Shown here in pieces: positions 8,033 through 33,314 of a stretch of 38,659 nucleotides of DNA. Position 1 is the stretch's first letter, and every line of letters begins with the position of its first letter. The DNA comes from a virus, in the IMG/VR virus record IMGVR_UViG_3300048029_000635, positions 1 to 38,659 of that record. One strand, written 5' to 3'. Under the pieces are notes generated by a model. That model saw only the letters and a program-made list of their open reading frames with translations. It did not search any database and was not told the origin of the DNA. A program made the position numbers and the translations under genes.

Positions 8033-9916
8033 TCAGAATGAGTGGGTCGTGCCACCCAATGTGAACTGTACCGAATCGGAAATGTTTTCCAAGATAAGGT
8101 GACGGTGTGGACGATCCATCATCGTAGTCCATTTTGTGGAACGAAGATTGAAGGTACGTTTCACCGAGTCCATACGGCAGCTGTAAAGACGATCAACTTC
8201 TGGATGAGGCTGTGTTCGTGTAACGCTGTTAGTGCCAGCGATTCCGATCTTAACGTCACTCCAATCAACGAGCCAAAGCATACGATGAGTTGAGGTGAAC
8301 TTGGAAGCATCTCCTCCGCTGAAGACATCATCGCCAGAGCGTGTGCCATCAATAAGGTACTTCTGACCAGAACCAACATTAAGGAGGTCATCGAACATTG
8401 GGTCATGGAAGACAGCCAACTGAACTCCAACATCAGGGATGTCGTAAACGTTGTAGTTGAAGAGAATAATCCCGTTATGCTCAATCGTCTGATTGATATT
8501 AGCATTACGCTGAGTCTCCCATCCGTAACGGAGTTTGTAGTAGGAGTTGAATGCCTCGAAGATTTTGACTGCGGTCAAACGGTCGGTCATTACGTCGATC
8601 ACCGAAATGGTGTCTCCGTCCTGCTCACGGTTACGCTTGAGGAAGTACAAGTCAGAGAACAAGGAATCAAGATCAAGAGCGTTTCCGCCATTGTCCTTAA
8701 TACGACCACCTTCACGAAGAAGACTCTTGATACCAAGCGCGTTGGCTTTGTACTCGAGTGTGCAGTTGGTGTCTTCTGGGTCAGCAACGCCAGGTAACTG
8801 CATGTAAGTCTCAGGCTTCTGAGCATCGCTGAGTGCTTGGTTGTACCATACAGCACGATTCCATTGATCTTGGGAAACCTTGGAAGCAATTTTGTTTTGC
8901 TCAGCCAATGGTTGGTAGACCATGGAAGAAAGATAAGGATTAACCTTGCCAGACATGATTTGCTCAAGAGTTTTCTTGTAGCTATCGTTGACCTCACGAG
9001 ATTCACGAGTGGTTTGCAACCAGTTGACAAGTAAGCGAACGCTCATGTCGGTTGGTTGATTTCTGCACCATGACTCATAGTCGTTGATGTTGTTGGCAAT
9101 GGTTTGAAGAATACCTGCGGTAGGTGCGAATTTAGCTTGCTCAGGCGCCGGAAGCGTAGAGAAACTAGCACTTGCTGGAACTTCTTTACCAGTTGGGCGA
9201 AGAATAACTTCAGCTTTAGCAATTGTTCCCGTGTTGCCAGAGTTAGCACCATCAGCGTTGGTAGCACCAACGATCATGAACTGAACCTCTACAACTGCTC
9301 CTCCACTTGTCCAGTGGTTAACAATAACATATCCACCAGGAAGGAAGTAACGTTCGATGTTGCCAATAGGAGTTACCCAATCAGAGCCACCCAAATTAAC
9401 GGTTATTTTATAATCACCAGCTTTATTAGTGTAAGAAGGATCATAGGCATCAGAACCTGAAGCACTTGAACCGCCCTCAATGGCAAAATAGTTTGCATTG
9501 ATAACAGAGCGTTGTCTGCGCTGAATGTATGGCAAGATGATTGATTGCTCAGCAATATTTTGCTTATTGATCAATGGCTTGATGTTCTGCACGGAAGAAG
9601 TAAGAAGAGTGGTAAGTCCACGTTCTTCAACCCCAAGGGTTTTGGCTTCAGCAGCAGATGCAATAACTCTTGCTAGGTCGATTTCCTTGTTACCAAGTGC
9701 TTCGAACTCACCAGGTGTTAAACCTTTGATGTGTGCCTTAGTTAAGGTGCAGCCCGTAGAGCTATCGACTTTAATAATACGAGGTAGGGCGTCATAACCC
9801 GAACCTTGTGATCCAGGAATTAAGGAACTTGGCGAAGACGCAGTAGGTTGCGCCATTGCTGTGTTCTGATACCCAGAAGTAGTAAATTGTCCTGAATTTG
9901 ATATTTCGTTTGCCAT
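8033..9916 (-). CDS. Major capsid protein, 627 aa
   Basis: Called from position (directly downstream of portal and scaffold-like genes), high expected expression (isolated unit with its own upstream motif and a strong terminator) and composition: no TM segment, mixed alpha/beta, many Asn/Gly/Thr. Recognisable stretches are LPYIQRRQRSVINANYFAIEGG (about 128-149), LTAVKIFEAFNSYYKLRYGWE (about 432-452) and the C-terminal RTFNLRSTKWTTMMDRPHRH. It is larger than typical HK97-type capsid proteins, so it may carry an inserted or extra domain (for example around residues 150-225). Codon use is regular, with few rare codons. Confidence 0.75.
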   Translation of the reverse strand: MANEISNSGQFTTSGYQNTAMAQPTASSPSSLIPGSQGSGYDALPRIIKVDSSTGCTLTKAHIKGLTPGEFEALGNKEIDLARVIASAAEAKTLGVEERGLTTLLTSSVQNIKPLINKQNIAEQSIILPYIQRRQRSVINANYFAIEGGSSASGSDAYDPSYTNKAGDYKITVNLGGSDWVTPIGNIERYFLPGGYVIVNHWTSGGAVVEVQFMIVGATNADGANSGNTGTIAKAEVILRPTGKEVPASASFSTLPAPEQAKFAPTAGILQTIANNINDYESWCRNQPTDMSVRLLVNWLQTTRESREVNDSYKKTLEQIMSGKVNPYLSSMVYQPLAEQNKIASKVSQDQWNRAVWYNQALSDAQKPETYMQLPGVADPEDTNCTLEYKANALGIKSLLREGGRIKDNGGNALDLDSLFSDLYFLKRNREQDGDTISVIDVMTDRLTAVKIFEAFNSYYKLRYGWETQRNANINQTIEHNGIILFNYNVYDIPDVGVQLAVFHDPMFDDLLNVGSGQKYLIDGTRSGDDVFSGGDASKFTSTHRMLWLVDWSDVKIGIAGTNSVTRTQPHPEVDRLYSCRMDSVKRTFNLRSTKWTTMMDRPHRHLILENISDSVQFTLGGTTHSF

Positions 9917-17057: not shown

Positions 17058-17978
17058 ATGATCAAAAAAATACTTAAAACATTGACTAAGAAGGCGTTAC
17101 CAGGCATGCATGACACGCATGAGGTCGGCAGTTCGAATCTGCCATCTCCCACCAAGCCTAACTTAGTATCAAAGAATGACTTAGGGAGGCTTCCTGCACC
17201 TGACAAAGCTCACCGCATGTACCAGCATGCATGCGCTCAACGCAACTTGCGCAAGACTTCTTTAGTGACCATGCGACAGCGAGTTTCTGCCTTTATCACA
17301 TGGATTGGCGATAAAAAGTTAGATGAAATATCTCGGAAAGATGTAAAAACTTTTGCTGAATCTTTCTCAGGGAGATGGTCAAGAGTCGGTCATCGCAATG
17401 ATGTGTGCGTATTTTTGAATTGGTGTGGGCAAATGGGATGGATTAAGGAGGGTCAATTTTACAAAATTAAGCTTATGGAAGTTTTACAAGATGAGAATCC
17501 AATTGATATTTTGTCAGTAGAACAAGCTCAGAAACTGCTAAATGTTATGCCTGATCGATTCAAAGCTCGAACTGCGTTGCAGTTATTTGCAGGAATCCGA
17601 CCCTATGAATCCTTGAAAATCCAAAGTAAGGATTTAGATTTACAAGGAAAAAAGCTGTATTTGCTTGGGGAATATTCGAAGCTTAGGCGCACGAGAGTGC
17701 TTCATGATTTGCCTCCAAATTTAATAAAATGGCTAAAGAAATATCCATTACCAGACTCTTCTTACAATGCTTACAGATTGGCTCGCAGAAGATATTTTGG
17801 AAACATTGCACATGATGCTATGAGGCACACATTTTGCACTTATGCATATTTCAAAATGGGGATGGAAATGACCATGCGATACACTGGACATTCTAATTAT
17901 AAAACTTTCCATCGCCACTATTGCGAATCTTCTGCAAATGCAAAAGATGCTGAAAAATACTTCCGGCTAATCCCGTAG
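17058..17978 (+). CDS. int: Tyrosine-type integrase overlapping its own attP, 306 aa
   Basis: This site-specific recombinase inserts and excises the phage at a tRNA-Val gene. All catalytic residues are visible: Arg181 (AGIRPYESL), Lys208 in the beta-hairpin, His252-x-x-Arg256 (HDAMRH), His278 (TGHSN) and the nucleophile Tyr288 (HRHYCE). The core-binding domain occupies about 45-140. Residues 15-33 are encoded by the tRNA-derived att core at 17104-17154, so integration would detach the promoter and the first ~16 codons. An in-frame ATG (codon 17, 17106) inside the tRNA sequence could restart translation in the prophage. The gene is a little shorter than most phage integrases. Confidence 0.92.
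   Translation: MIKKILKTLTKKALPGMHDTHEVGSSNLPSPTKPNLVSKNDLGRLPAPDKAHRMYQHACAQRNLRKTSLVTMRQRVSAFITWIGDKKLDEISRKDVKTFAESFSGRWSRVGHRNDVCVFLNWCGQMGWIKEGQFYKIKLMEVLQDENPIDILSVEQAQKLLNVMPDRFKARTALQLFAGIRPYESLKIQSKDLDLQGKKLYLLGEYSKLRRTRVLHDLPPNLIKWLKKYPLPDSSYNAYRLARRRYFGNIAHDAMRHTFCTYAYFKMGMEMTMRYTGHSNYKTFHRHYCESSANAKDAEKYFRLIP
17104..17154 (+). other. attP: attP core: 3' half of a tRNA-Val(GAC) gene
   Basis: The sequence folds as the 3' half of a tRNA. It has anticodon stem CATGC/GCATG around a 7-nt loop ATGACAC with anticodon GAC, then variable loop AGGTC. The T arm is GGCAG-TTCGAAT-CTGCC, followed by 3' acceptor strand ATCTCCC, discriminator A and an encoded CCA. No 5' half precedes it, so it is not a working tRNA gene. 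It is the segment by which the phage would restore the host tRNA on integration. Confidence 0.85.
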
Positions 17979-29629: not shown

Positions 29630-29719
29630 CTACCAAATGATTCCCAGTTTAGGAAAGTTCAGAAACGGTGCATATATATATACAGCCGCCGGATCCTGAT
29701 TCCCCCCAGGCACCCCCAT
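29630..29719 (-). CDS. 29-aa leader-like peptide (candidate)
   Basis: The ATG follows GTTAC of the palindromic motif copy with no gap, and the frame stays open for 29 codons (MGVPGGNQDPAAVYIYAP, then FLNFPKLGIIW). It lies just before the 678-residue gene. It could be a real microprotein or a translated leader; the main support is the motif arrangement. Confidence 0.35.
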   Translation of the reverse strand: MGVPGGNQDPAAVYIYAPFLNFPKLGIIW

Positions 29720-29743
29720 GTAACCTAATGCGTATTAGGTAAC
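29720..29743. promoter_or_regulatory. Palindromic two-box motif variant (N13 spacer)
   Basis: GTAACC-N13-GTAAC on plus (GTTACC-N13-GTTAC on minus). The inside is a palindrome ACCTAAT / ATTAGGT around GCG-T. It lies in the divergent gap between the 678-residue (minus) and 145-residue (plus) genes, so it may serve both strands. Confidence 0.5.
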
Positions 29744-29801
29744 ACATATGCTGTAAGTTGTTGATAGCCAATAAGTTTATTCGTGGCGTTTCTATAGTTG
29801 T

Positions 29802-29851: not shown

Positions 29852-30289
29852 ATGAACGATCTAATTATCTCAAATAATCAACAAAAAGCCTATGCATTAA
29901 AAACTCTTGCAAGCGGATTTAGCCAAGTGCAATTACTATCCCGAAAAGCCTATGGGGAAAAGTTTGACATCAAAGGAAAAGCCTTAAAGCGAGCGCACTC
30001 CAAATATCTTTTAGAAAGTGGAAAGAGTGCAAGTGCTGAAGTAGCCAAGCAAATAGTCGATGGTGATCTATTAACTAAAAAGATCACTGAAACGACAAAC
30101 GGCGCTCGCGTCGAGTTTGTAAGAAAGTCGGCGGTAACAAGCGCAAAGTCATTCGATAAGGGCGCTGAAAAAGAAATCGAATTGACAGAGGAAATGAAGC
30201 ACAAAGATAGCATCATGAACAAGCAATGGGATAAGCTTGTTGAGCTAGGCATGACTCCTGAAGAAATCGATCAGATGCTTAATAGCTAA
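29852..30289 (+). CDS. Hypothetical protein encoded just before the structured RNA, 145 aa
   Basis: Basic helical N-terminus (QQKAYALKTLASGFSQVQLLSRKAYGEKFDIKGKALKRAHSKYLL), then a helical, charged remainder ending in EEMKHKDSIMNKQWDKLVELGMTPEEIDQML. The upstream 30 nt are A-rich, without a Shine-Dalgarno sequence. It is the only protein gene immediately 5' of the RNA candidate, on the same strand and only a few bases away. Not recognised. A role with the RNA is possible from position and basic N-terminus only. Confidence 0.65.
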   Translation: MNDLIISNNQQKAYALKTLASGFSQVQLLSRKAYGEKFDIKGKALKRAHSKYLLESGKSASAEVAKQIVDGDLLTKKITETTNGARVEFVRKSAVTSAKSFDKGAEKEIELTEEMKHKDSIMNKQWDKLVELGMTPEEIDQMLNS

Positions 30290-30290
30290 G

Positions 30291-31298
30291 CCTTAAGGAT
30301 TCGCTACCCTAAGTAGCGTTGCCAAGCAATGGAAAGCCTCCACGTGGCGCTTGGTGGGTAACGCTAATTTCCATCCGATAGCCTAGGGTTACGCCCTTGG
30401 CGAGCGTGAAAGCGCAAAGAGTTATGCTCGGTTTCGGTTTGTTCTTTACTAGTCTATTCGCTTGCAATCCATGATCTACGTTGGATTTGGCACTTGGTTT
30501 GCAAGCTATCCATGAAGCAATTGAAAGCGCTTTTGAAATAAATAATTGGGAAACGCTTGCAGTAAGCATGCATGAACGTGATCGGAAACGCCATGGGTCG
30601 CCCATTCATTGGGGTTGGTTGAGCCTTTAGATTATTGGGAACGTACGTCACGCAACGATGCCATCTGTAAGAGATGTTTTAAAGTCCATGCGAACTAGAT
30701 TATTTACGTAGATGTAAGACTGACTTTCAGCATAGTAGTAGCACCGAAAGGTGGTGTTCAAGTGAGGGTAATGCCCTTGGGCGAACGATAAGACTATTAT
30801 TGTGTTCGGTACGTGAGCCGTACCATCGCAGACGTCTAGCAAGTGACAGCGCTTGTGGGATAAAGGGCATCGATATGGATAAGGGTACAATGATATATGT
30901 TCGGAGCATATGTTACGTAAACTAAATTTGGAGGCATCGGTTGCTTGGTTACCAATACTCATCACTTAGAATATTATTCGTCTGTAAGTCTTATAGGGTG
31001 TGCATATGTAAGGCTTTGCGAGTTGACTATTTTGATCTATGTATTGACTACCCGAAAAAACGAGAGGGGAATTGCTCGGATCGATGAAACTTGTTCGTGG
31101 AAACGCGTGTCACTTAGGAAACACAAACGAACTAACGGAAATTAAAGTGCCTAGGCGTGTAATGATTATTTAGAAGATGATATGCCTATCGGTTTGGTCA
31201 GCCGAAGAAATTATACTAAGGAGATAACCTAAATTATTATCAGTTGGATACCCTTATGGGTGTTCACTATTGTCGCAACGCAACCGCGTTGCTTTTTT
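30291..31298 (+). ncRNA. Large structured non-coding RNA candidate, about 1.0 kb (GOLLD/ROOL-like or new)
   Basis: No credible protein is encoded here, but hairpins follow one another on the plus strand. Examples are CGCTAC/GTAGCG at 30302-30318, GCTTGCAA/TTGCAAGC closing 30460-30506, CATCT/AGATG at 30662-30676 and CACC-GAAA-GGTG at 30742-30753. More are ACGATAA/TTATTGT near 30785-30803, GGTACG/CGTACC at 30808-30824, CAAGTG/CGCTTG at 30840-30855 and AAGTCTTA/TAAGGCTT at 30986-31016. A GTTCG/CGAAC junction (31093-31132) encloses a CGTG-GAAA-CGCG hairpin, and ATACCC/GGGTGT lies at 31248-31263. The region ends in an intrinsic terminator. GNRA loops recur. Size and phage context resemble GOLLD and ROOL; I cannot align it to either. 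The 5' end is uncertain. Confidence 0.7.
31275..31298 (+). terminator. Intrinsic terminator of the structured RNA
   Basis: Perfect 7-bp stem GCAACGC / GCGTTGC with loop AACC, immediately followed by six T. This is one of the strongest terminators in the window and defines the RNA 3' end. Confidence 0.88.
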
Positions 31299-31322
31299 GT
31301 TTATGAACCCGATGTGGTCTGT

Positions 31323-31370
31323 ACGTACTGAGCTACGTGCAGACTACGTCACAACACGTAGTTGGAACGT
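31323..31370. repeat. Phased ACGT element, copy B
   Basis: ACGT occurs at 31323, 31335, 31346, 31356 and 31367, spaced 12, 11, 10 and 11 bp. TACGTGCAGACTACG (31334-31348) is identical to copy A at 17984, followed after 7 nt by ACGTAGTT and after 2 more by AACGT, as in copy A. The centre is a 7-bp inverted repeat ACTACGT / ACGTAGT around CACAAC. It lies between two terminators and contains no gene. Confidence 0.6.
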
Positions 31371-31438
31371 AAACTACTTGCGAGCAAGAGAGAATCATAG
31401 GCAGTCAATCGCTGACGCACGTTCTACTACAAAACTTA

Positions 31439-31481
31439 GCCCTTCCAGAGCTTTTGTGCTTCTGGGAGGGCTTTTCTTTTT
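31439..31481 (+). terminator. Second intrinsic terminator before the right arm
   Basis: Stem GCCCTTCCAGA / TCTGGGAGGGC (one G-U pair), extendable by an inner GC/GC, followed by TTTTCTTTTT. With the RNA terminator 150 nt upstream it isolates the 31.3-31.44 kb segment; a short transcript from the ACGT element region may end here. Confidence 0.8.
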
Positions 31482-31539
31482 ACTAGTCACATTATTAATT
31501 CAATCGAGAGGTCTACTCGTTAAAACAGACAACATACAC

Positions 31540-31779
31540 ATGATTCTTAATAAAATTATGAAACTATTGGCTCACTTAGTTGAGCTAGATGAAGACAGAA
31601 AGTACATGATGTCTGATATTGCTTTGGAAGCTAATAACTCTAAGGCAAAGAACATCATGACCAACGCTATGGGTTTAGCTCATAGCATTGGTTGCACCAT
31701 TTGGTGTGATGCTAAGCGTGACCACACTAACTACCAATTGATTGGTTCTAAAGGAGCAGTCATCGATCAAACACGATAA
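31540..31779 (+). CDS. Small hypothetical protein, 79 aa, first gene of the right arm
   Basis: The start MILNKIMKLLAHLVEL at 31540 is chosen because any longer form would read through both terminators; ATG 31558 is an alternative. Helical N-terminus, then EANNSKAKNIMTNAMGLAHSIGCTIWCDAKRDHTNYQLIGSKGAVI. No family is recognised. It follows the isolated terminator segment, so a promoter must lie in about 31480-31540. Confidence 0.55.
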   Translation: MILNKIMKLLAHLVELDEDRKYMMSDIALEANNSKAKNIMTNAMGLAHSIGCTIWCDAKRDHTNYQLIGSKGAVIDQTR

Positions 31780-31798
31780 CCAATAGGAGGAAAATATA

Positions 31799-32071
31799 AT
31801 GACATTATTCCAAGCACTAAAAATATTGCTTCGCAACAAGGGCATCAAAGAAAACTTAGCTTATGCTTTTAGTAAGAAAACAGATAAGCTTGATGCGTGG
31901 CATTACTTCGAGAAATGCTCCGACAAGTGGTACAATCATTCGCTTTCTGTCACAGATGAAGATGAGGTAGACAGAGCCTTAGCAAGGTCATCTGCATTCC
32001 ACTTTATGGGCAGATTCCTTTTAAAACGAGGAACTATTCGTATCAATCTCAATAACTACAACGTAAGATGA
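31799..32071 (+). CDS. Hypothetical protein, 90 aa
   Basis: Strong AGGAGG 9 nt upstream of the ATG. Basic and helical (FQALKILLRNKGIKENLAYAFSKKTDKLDAWHYFEKC), then an acidic loop and FHFMGRFLLKRGTIRINLNNYNVR. Not recognised. Confidence 0.6.
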   Translation: MTLFQALKILLRNKGIKENLAYAFSKKTDKLDAWHYFEKCSDKWYNHSLSVTDEDEVDRALARSSAFHFMGRFLLKRGTIRINLNNYNVR

Positions 32072-32166
32072 TTGAATACATACTTAATCGCCCATCCATT
32101 CTCATACCTACCCTCTTCGGTGTGGGTATTCTCTCGGTCATACTAGATATGTGTGGCCTTCTGTAA
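32068..32166 (+). CDS. 32-aa membrane microprotein
   Basis: ATGA overlap with the previous gene. MIEYILNRPS is followed by a hydrophobic helix (ILIPTLFGVGILSVILDM) and CGLL. The stop is 2 nt before the two-box motif. A tiny membrane-targeted peptide of unknown function. Confidence 0.5.
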   Translation: MIEYILNRPSILIPTLFGVGILSVILDMCGLL

Positions 32167-32168
32167 AA

Positions 32169-32190
32169 GTAACCTATAAAACTAAGTAAC
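32169..32190 (+). promoter_or_regulatory. Two-box 22-bp motif copy at 32.2 kb
   Basis: GTAACC-N11-GTAAC, then TA and ATG. The spacer TATAAAACTAA contains a TATAAA run. It occupies nearly all of the gap between two genes. Confidence 0.6.
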
Positions 32191-32192
32191 TA

Positions 32193-32399
32193 ATGAAAGT
32201 AGTATACAATGGACAAAGGCGTAACCTACGCCACATCGATGGAATGATTAGAAGTCAGTACTCTGATTACTTCCATCTCGACATGAATGTTGGGGATGAG
32301 TCTCTCGTTCCCTCTATTCGCAAGCGGAAGTACAAAGCTCCTAAGCTTTCCTTCCCTAACTCAAAGACCAAGGAAAAGTGGGCAAGAAAAAGGAGTTAA
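32193..32399 (+). CDS. Small basic protein, 68 aa
   Basis: Basic C-terminal half (SIRKRKYKAPKLSFPNSKTKEKWARKRS) suggests nucleic-acid binding. The N-terminus is MKVVYNGQRRNLRHIDGMI. It ends just before the peptide deformylase start. Not recognised. Confidence 0.6.
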   Translation: MKVVYNGQRRNLRHIDGMIRSQYSDYFHLDMNVGDESLVPSIRKRKYKAPKLSFPNSKTKEKWARKRS

Positions 32400-32403
32400 A
32401 CAG

Positions 32404-32970
32404 ATGGAACTAGTAGAACTAACTAAGAACTTAGACTTCCTGAAGATCAAATCTGATCCTTGGAGAGAAGATAAATGGCACGATGGTGTGCTAGAAAACA
32501 TGGCTGATGAAGCGTTCAGAGTCATGAAGGCTAACGATGGTGTTGGCTTGGCTCTGAACCAAATCGGTGTCGATTGCTCATGCTTCATCATGGATGGAGA
32601 CTTCTTTCTTCCTAGATATGGAGTAAAGAAGGGAGAGTATGGGTATGAACTGACCATGGAACATATGATGTTCTTGGGTAATAACCTTAGAAAGGTAGAT
32701 GGAGAATACTATATGCTCTTTGTTAACCCTTGGTTTAAGGATCAACACAGAGGTATTTCTCGCAAGGCAGAGGGATGCCTCTCCTTGGGTGAGAAGTACA
32801 AGGTAGCAAGAGCCAAGTCAATCAGAGCGGGATGGCTTGGCATCGGTGATCGAGGAATCTCAGTACCACAAGATATGCCAATGAGTGGCGATCTAGCGAG
32901 GTGCTTTCAACACGAGTATGACCATACACAAGGCATACTCATATCTAACAAAGGAAAACTAATAAAATGA
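32404..32970 (+). CDS. def: Peptide deformylase, 188 aa
   Basis: Removes the formyl group from the initiator methionine of new proteins. All three motifs are present: GVGLALNQ at 46-53, EGCLSL at 123-128 (Cys125, metal ligand) and QHEYDH at 169-174 (His170 and His174 ligands, Glu171 catalytic). The start at 32404 follows AAGGAG; a longer in-frame start would overlap the basic protein. Motif 1 has Leu where most deformylases have Ala (GLAAxQ). The long insert at about 65-105 is unusual. Phage deformylases are best known from cyanophages and marine phages. Confidence 0.93.
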   Translation: MELVELTKNLDFLKIKSDPWREDKWHDGVLENMADEAFRVMKANDGVGLALNQIGVDCSCFIMDGDFFLPRYGVKKGEYGYELTMEHMMFLGNNLRKVDGEYYMLFVNPWFKDQHRGISRKAEGCLSLGEKYKVARAKSIRAGWLGIGDRGISVPQDMPMSGDLARCFQHEYDHTQGILISNKGKLIK

Positions 32971-33314
32971 GTAAAATGAGTGAACTACACATAGCTCAAT
33001 CCAATGTGATTGATGCTGTAAAAGAAATGCTTGGAGATGATGCCCATCTTTTGGATAGGCTCATCTCTACTAGAGGAAGTCGAAAAGGTTTCCTAAAGAA
33101 AACACCACCAAGGTGTGGAACTGAAGAGGAAGCTCTTCACCAAGCCATCATGCATGAGGCTAACCCATACCAAATATCTGTCGGGCGTGTCATGTTCATG
33201 CCTACAGAGCAACGCAAGAAGTTCGAGAAGTGGCGTGTAGCTTTCGATGGCTTCAAAGGCTTAGCATTACTCTGCAAAGATAGAGTATCACTAGAAATGC
33301 TAGGAGTCTACTAA
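32967..33314 (+). CDS. Hypothetical protein, 115 aa
   Basis: Overlaps the deformylase by ATGA. A conserved-looking core is KKTPPRCGTEEEALHQAIMHEANPYQISVGRVMFMPTEQRKKFEKW. Helical ends. No family is recognised; tight coupling suggests co-expression with the deformylase. Confidence 0.6.
   Translation: MSKMSELHIAQSNVIDAVKEMLGDDAHLLDRLISTRGSRKGFLKKTPPRCGTEEEALHQAIMHEANPYQISVGRVMFMPTEQRKKFEKWRVAFDGFKGLALLCKDRVSLEMLGVY

Follow-up and report, generated by a model that had tools for sequence, protein, structure and literature searches.

Locus, neighboring genes, and relatives

The window (the whole stretch of 38,659 nt analyzed here, positions 1 to 38,659 of the phage record IMGVR_UViG_3300048029_000635) contains a candidate noncoding region at 30291 to 31298; the corresponding gap, 30290 to 31300, is bounded by a gene for a 145-aa protein and by small plus-strand genes that begin at ~31540 (Table 1). 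The longest ORFs within the region, as listed by ORF calling, are 98, 105, and 66 aa, and none has a Pfam match above the curated cutoff. Minus-strand ORFs that overlap the region in the window are unrelated to those in the closest relative, and gaps of 2, 4, 2, 1, and 1 between these two homologues disrupt all reading frames. This agrees with an earlier note on this DNA, which saw no plausible protein here; the conserved reading frame that it named as the finding that would speak against a noncoding RNA is absent, because such gaps exclude a shared frame. The same note described the phage as temperate, a label whose support is a single integrase-like gene at 17058 to 17978 (PHROG E value of 3.7e-16, but under the Pfam cutoff).

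Table 1. Features of the RNA locus, in window coordinates
Feature	Position	Strand	Description and basis
Conserved intergenic element	29653–29800		Between divergent genes; GAAAGTTCAGAAANGGTGNATATA, inverted repeat TAACCTAATGCGTATTAGGTAA; 72–90% identity in relatives
Small protein gene	29852–30289	+	145 aa; directly upstream of the RNA; ORF call
Hairpin CGCTAC-CCTAA-GTAGCG	30302–30318	+	6 bp; ends two bases ahead of the predicted cleavage site; from sequence
Minimal (P4-less) HDV-like ribozyme, putative	30321–30374	+	Subthreshold Rfam matches and descriptor
HDV-like P1	30321–30327/30349–30355	+	7 bp with typical G-U closing pair
HDV-like P2	30329–30335/30368–30374	+	7 bp, perfect
HDV-like P3	30336–30338/30346–30348	+	3 bp, contiguous with P1; L3 TCCACGT
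HDV-like P1.1	30340–30341/30356–30357	+	CC/GG
HDV-like J1.1/4 and J4/2		+	GTAAC and CTAA; catalytic C at 30364, directly after GTAACG
Variable 5' part	30375–30729	+	Includes the 8-bp stem 30461–30468/30500–30507 of the earlier note; little alignable in relatives
Middle core	30730–30912	+	Multibranch element 30730–30805, hairpin 30808–30824, stem-loop 30825–30874, hairpin 30894–30912 (TGTTCGGAGCA)
3' domain H1	31061–31064/31075–31078	+	Hand alignment, three lineages
3' domain H2, outer	31093–31097/31128–31132	+	Hand alignment, three lineages
3' domain H2, inner	31107–31110/31121–31124	+	Hand alignment, three lineages
3' domain H3	31151–31158/31182–31189	+	Hand alignment, three lineages
Conserved 3' tail and terminator	31255–31298	+	GGGTGTTCA...TCGCAACGCAACC, then stem GCAACGC/GCGTTGC and T6
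Five ACGT-centered repeats	31321–31368		~11 bp apart; follow the RNA and precede the strong terminator
Strong terminator	31438–31482	+	−25.3 kcal/mol; z = −5.2

The closest relative, L003 (IMGVR_UViG_3300025137_000026), was reached through the protein encoded downstream of the RNA; it has a 1.26-kb gap at the equivalent place, with a blastn alignment to the window RNA of 164 nt at 71% identity. Further contigs were found through the conserved upstream intergenic element (GAAAGTTCAGAAANGGTGNATATA). L035 and L037 span the whole locus, L041 holds only the start of an L003-like copy, and L019 is a duplicate of L003. The position of the locus is the same in four lineages of IMG/VR phages (window, L003, L035, and L037): the 3' domain is common to the first three and the middle core to the window and L003, and similarity of L037 to the window RNA is limited to the last ~60 nt. 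A BLAST search of INPHARED phages and plasmids returned no relative of the RNA (a 39-nt match in Dulem virus 40 lies inside a coding gene and was rejected), and DNA-pattern scans (TGTTCGGAGCA..AATTTGG and CAAGTG..GGGCGNACGANAAGA) recovered only L003, its duplicate contig, and coding-sequence coincidences. A genome scan yielded two Pseudomonas matches, both coincidences in coding sequence.

The intergenic element is likely the control region of the transcription unit, as a candidate promoter or operator; its inverted repeat GTAACCTAATGCGTATTAGGTAACACATAT (29718 to 29748) is kept in seven loci. Most contigs that carry this element (G001, L019, L023, L026, L027, L029, L036, and L041) end 0.1 to 1.65 kb beyond it, at points scattered within the RNA or just ahead of it, probably as assembly breaks at a variable cassette beside the conserved element. 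The 145-aa gene is probably cotranscribed with the RNA. Its product has no Pfam or PHROG match and an AlphaFold pLDDT of 47; weak homologues occupy the equivalent place in L035 and L037, and in L003 and L041 the upstream gene belongs to a different protein family (209 aa). The upstream gene and the RNA 5' end may therefore swap together between lineages.

At the other edge, the 7-bp stem and T6 (31275 to 31298) given as the end of the RNA in the earlier note are present, but that note overlooked the strong terminator beyond them, which has a GC-rich stem with a T tail as its counterpart further on in all four lineages. The 3' tail motif is likewise kept in all four; the T-run occurs in the window only. 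These terminators point to the plus strand as the transcribed one. The ACGT repeats that precede the second terminator show similar phasing in the four lineages, less complete in L035, and their arrangement makes a protein-binding DNA array (operator, partition, or origin) outside the RNA fold probable.

Conserved pairing in the middle core and 3' domain

The complementary arms described in the earlier note exist: GCTTGCAA at 30461 pairs with TTGCAAGC at 30500, AAGTCTTA pairs with TAAGGCTT, and the CACC-GAAA-GGTG hairpin lies at 30742 to 30753. A further hairpin proposed there, CGTG-GAAA-CGCG (~31096 to 31107), conflicts with the covarying outer helix of H2. By themselves, such arms are not beyond chance: compared with dinucleotide shuffles, the folding energies of 200-nt windows across 30201 to 31200 gave z scores of +0.2 to +1.6, and the entire 1,011 nt gave −2.3. 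What exceeds chance is pairing conserved in relatives.

For the middle core, we compared two sequences, the window and L003, using a plain MAFFT alignment and RNAalifold. Of 55 consensus pairs, 14 are changed on both sides, none is mispaired, and one has a gap. The consensus energy is −55.0 kcal/mol, compared with −18.0 ± 4.0 kcal/mol in 300 column shuffles (lowest, −33.9), corresponding to a z score of −9.3. When the partner strand was shifted by 1 to 3 columns, paired cells fell from 100% to 34 to 46%, and the number of two-sided changes, 14 in register, fell to 0 or 1.

The 3' domain was aligned by hand on the anchors CTTG and TAACGG, because MAFFT misaligned this block (plain MAFFT with alifold gave a z score of −0.5 and no significant structure). 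In this alignment of the window, L003, and L035, which leans toward the structure, two-sided changes affect 15 of 22 pairs, and 2 of 66 cells are bad; a single G in a loop of L035 is missing from it by error, with no helix affected. The covariation that the earlier note had proposed to look for in homologues is thus found in two blocks. Together with the conserved position and the lack of conserved frames, it supports that note's main proposal of a structured noncoding RNA of ~1 kb in a phage: the region is a genuine plus-strand gene for a structured RNA. A covariance model for broader searches can be built directly from the conserved 3' domain.

Ribozyme-like motifs at the 5' edge

Missing from the earlier account of the region was a putative HDV-like ribozyme at its 5' edge, with a predicted cleavage site between 30320 and 30321. 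A permissive Rfam scan placed two HDV models at 30319 to 30419 (RF02682, 25.6 bits, E value of 0.041; RF00094, 24.8 bits), both under their gathering scores of 44 and 50 bits, respectively. A match above these scores is the usual test for HDV ribozymes but does not define the P4-less group; the models include P4, missing at 30321 to 30374. Other permissive matches (snoRNA and miRNA) are due to chance. A structural descriptor independently selected the same spot: across the window and six relative loci it matched nowhere else, and 3.9 Mb of shuffled sequence contained no match. The features that define minimal HDV-like ribozymes (PMC10879173) are present: a nested pseudoknot of P1, P2, P3, and P1.1 with the L3 and J1.1/4 motifs, catalytic C as the first base of J4/2, and no P4. 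The motif is seen in one sequence, the nearest contigs stopping just before the site. We conclude from its anatomy that it probably cuts the 5' end of the RNA free by self-cleavage, and the hairpin just ahead of the cut would cap the 3' end of the upstream mRNA.

P4-less, "minimal" HDV-like ribozymes are an established phage group active in vitro, and hundreds of theta ribozymes away from tRNAs sit in noncoding DNA with no role assigned (PMC10879173). The window motif shares with these ribozymes the P4-less fold, a phage host, a location in noncoding DNA, and the strand of the neighboring gene. It differs from theta ribozymes in not lying at a tRNA 3' end (the window has no tRNA), and its location, bordering a large structured RNA on the 5' side, is a new context for the minimal HDV-like group.

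In L035, the corresponding position, just past the stop codon of the upstream gene, carries a hammerhead-like motif (within ~5880 to 5780, minus strand of the contig; predicted cut after GGTGGGTA). It fits the hammerhead core CUGANGA/GAAA/UH with three stems and a GUA cleavage site, but its stem II has a U-U at the base, unlike that of known hammerheads, and neither RF00163 nor the Rfam scan detected the motif. Among all loci examined it was the only match to the hammerhead descriptor, which found one match in 7.9 Mb of shuffled sequence. The L035 phage thus seems to use a different ribozyme at this place, although the case is weaker than that for the HDV-like motif. In L003, L041, L037, and L027, searches with loosened hammerhead and HDV descriptors yielded no matches above chance. 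An identical hairpin with an 11-bp stem, CCTTTGCCTAGCGTTGGACTAGGCAAAGG, occurs in L003 (3473 to 3501) and L041 (~8433 to 8461) with differing flanks; it opens both RNAs, at the position taken by a ribozyme motif in other lineages.

Class and proposed function of the RNA

To our knowledge, very large structured phage RNAs are few. The model scans that the earlier note had suggested gave no match at threshold: no Rfam 15 family, including OLE, HEARO, and raiA, reached its gathering threshold in the window or in the six relative loci. At an E value of ≤10, GOLLD (RF02032) matched 0 of 4 records (the window and three relatives), with none in cmscan, and ROOL (RF03087) also matched 0 of 4, although the control genomes likewise gave no positive for ROOL. 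Of the two options offered in that note, a divergent GOLLD/ROOL member or a new class, the second is therefore the better one; the family is absent from Rfam.

GOLLD and ROOL are nonetheless the closest in kind. Like the window RNA, GOLLD is a large ornate RNA of phages and prophages with a conserved 3' and a variable 5' region (PMC12286853), a resemblance in plan only: here the 3' domain is kept in three lineages and the 5' part cannot be aligned. GOLLD, which forms a homo-oligomeric cage (14-mer), often lies near or contains a tRNA; the window RNA has a ribozyme motif at its 5' edge, no tRNA nearby, and no covariance-model match. ROOL is another large phage RNA (~0.6 kb) and is produced abundantly in one host; it differs from the window RNA in size and in its proximity to tRNAs. 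The ~800-nt ncRNA of phage ICP1 (gp139-gp140 gap; PMC7567579) is a very abundant transcript from a 1-kb, ORF-less phage region without tRNAs, but its sequence similarity to the window RNA is not above noise and it lacks an HDV or hammerhead motif. By analogy, a new class working like GOLLD and ROOL is plausible.

We consider it likely that the locus encodes a trans-acting phage RNA of ~1 kb that a ribozyme releases from a small gene's transcript. Rightward transcription would include the upstream 145-aa gene, and cleavage at the junction would part the hairpin-capped small mRNA from the RNA, leaving the latter with a uniform 5'-OH end. A terminator would supply the 3' end, giving a mature RNA of about 30321 to 31298, with possible read-through to ~31482. 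The RNA would fold independently and act in trans; of its parts, the 3' domain is conserved, the core partly so, and the 5' part replaceable. Its likeliest role, following the proposals for GOLLD and ROOL (PMC12286853), would be that of an architectural RNA or of a scaffold, built from RNA alone or from RNA and protein, that is produced in large amounts in the course of infection; this assignment, drawn by analogy, is tentative.

In one alternative, unlikely in our judgment, the RNA is real but both ribozyme-like motifs, HDV-like and hammerhead-like, are decayed or accidental, and a promoter or a host RNase generates the 5' end. Both motifs score under Rfam thresholds, stem II of the hammerhead-like one has the U-U at its base, and two lineages have no known ribozyme; yet every HDV core element but P4 is intact, including P1.1, the G-U pair closing P1, and CTAA, and shuffled sequence never matched. 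We regard it as quite unlikely that the region acts chiefly in cis, as a DNA or mRNA element (a replication origin, a partition or packaging site, or a long 3' UTR) whose hairpins serve DNA or mRNA-end functions. The phased ACGT repeats that immediately follow in every lineage, the many contigs that end at the region, and the terminators at its end would suit such an element, but neither the covarying core nor the 3' domain includes the repeats, and both the 5' ribozyme fold and the covariation across several hundred bases, which includes G-U pairs, fit RNA. Least probable of all is a GOLLD or ROOL RNA so divergent that the Rfam models miss it: size, phage host, and the GOLLD-like conserved 3' and variable 5' regions are consistent with this, but neither model matched the window or three relatives even at the permissive cutoff, and GOLLD's frequent tRNA neighbor is missing.

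The ribozyme-freed RNA that we favor adds to the large phage RNAs a family that Rfam lacks, its 5' end fixed by a predicted natural ribozyme step, and suggests a use for some non-tRNA phage ribozymes in freeing large RNAs from polycistronic transcripts. Whether the RNA represents a new giant phage class whose 5' ends are made by interchangeable ribozymes (HDV-like or hammerhead) between a small gene and the RNA we judge evenly balanced; if so, some "orphan" minimal HDV-like ribozymes in phage noncoding DNA would gain a role.

Downstream of the locus, the plus strand of the coding stretch 31601 to 33200 folds with unusual stability (z scores of about −2 to −6 in most 200-nt windows), which neighboring coding DNA does not; within it, 32287 to 32970 encodes a phage peptide deformylase (Pfam PF01327, E value of 1.2e-20).
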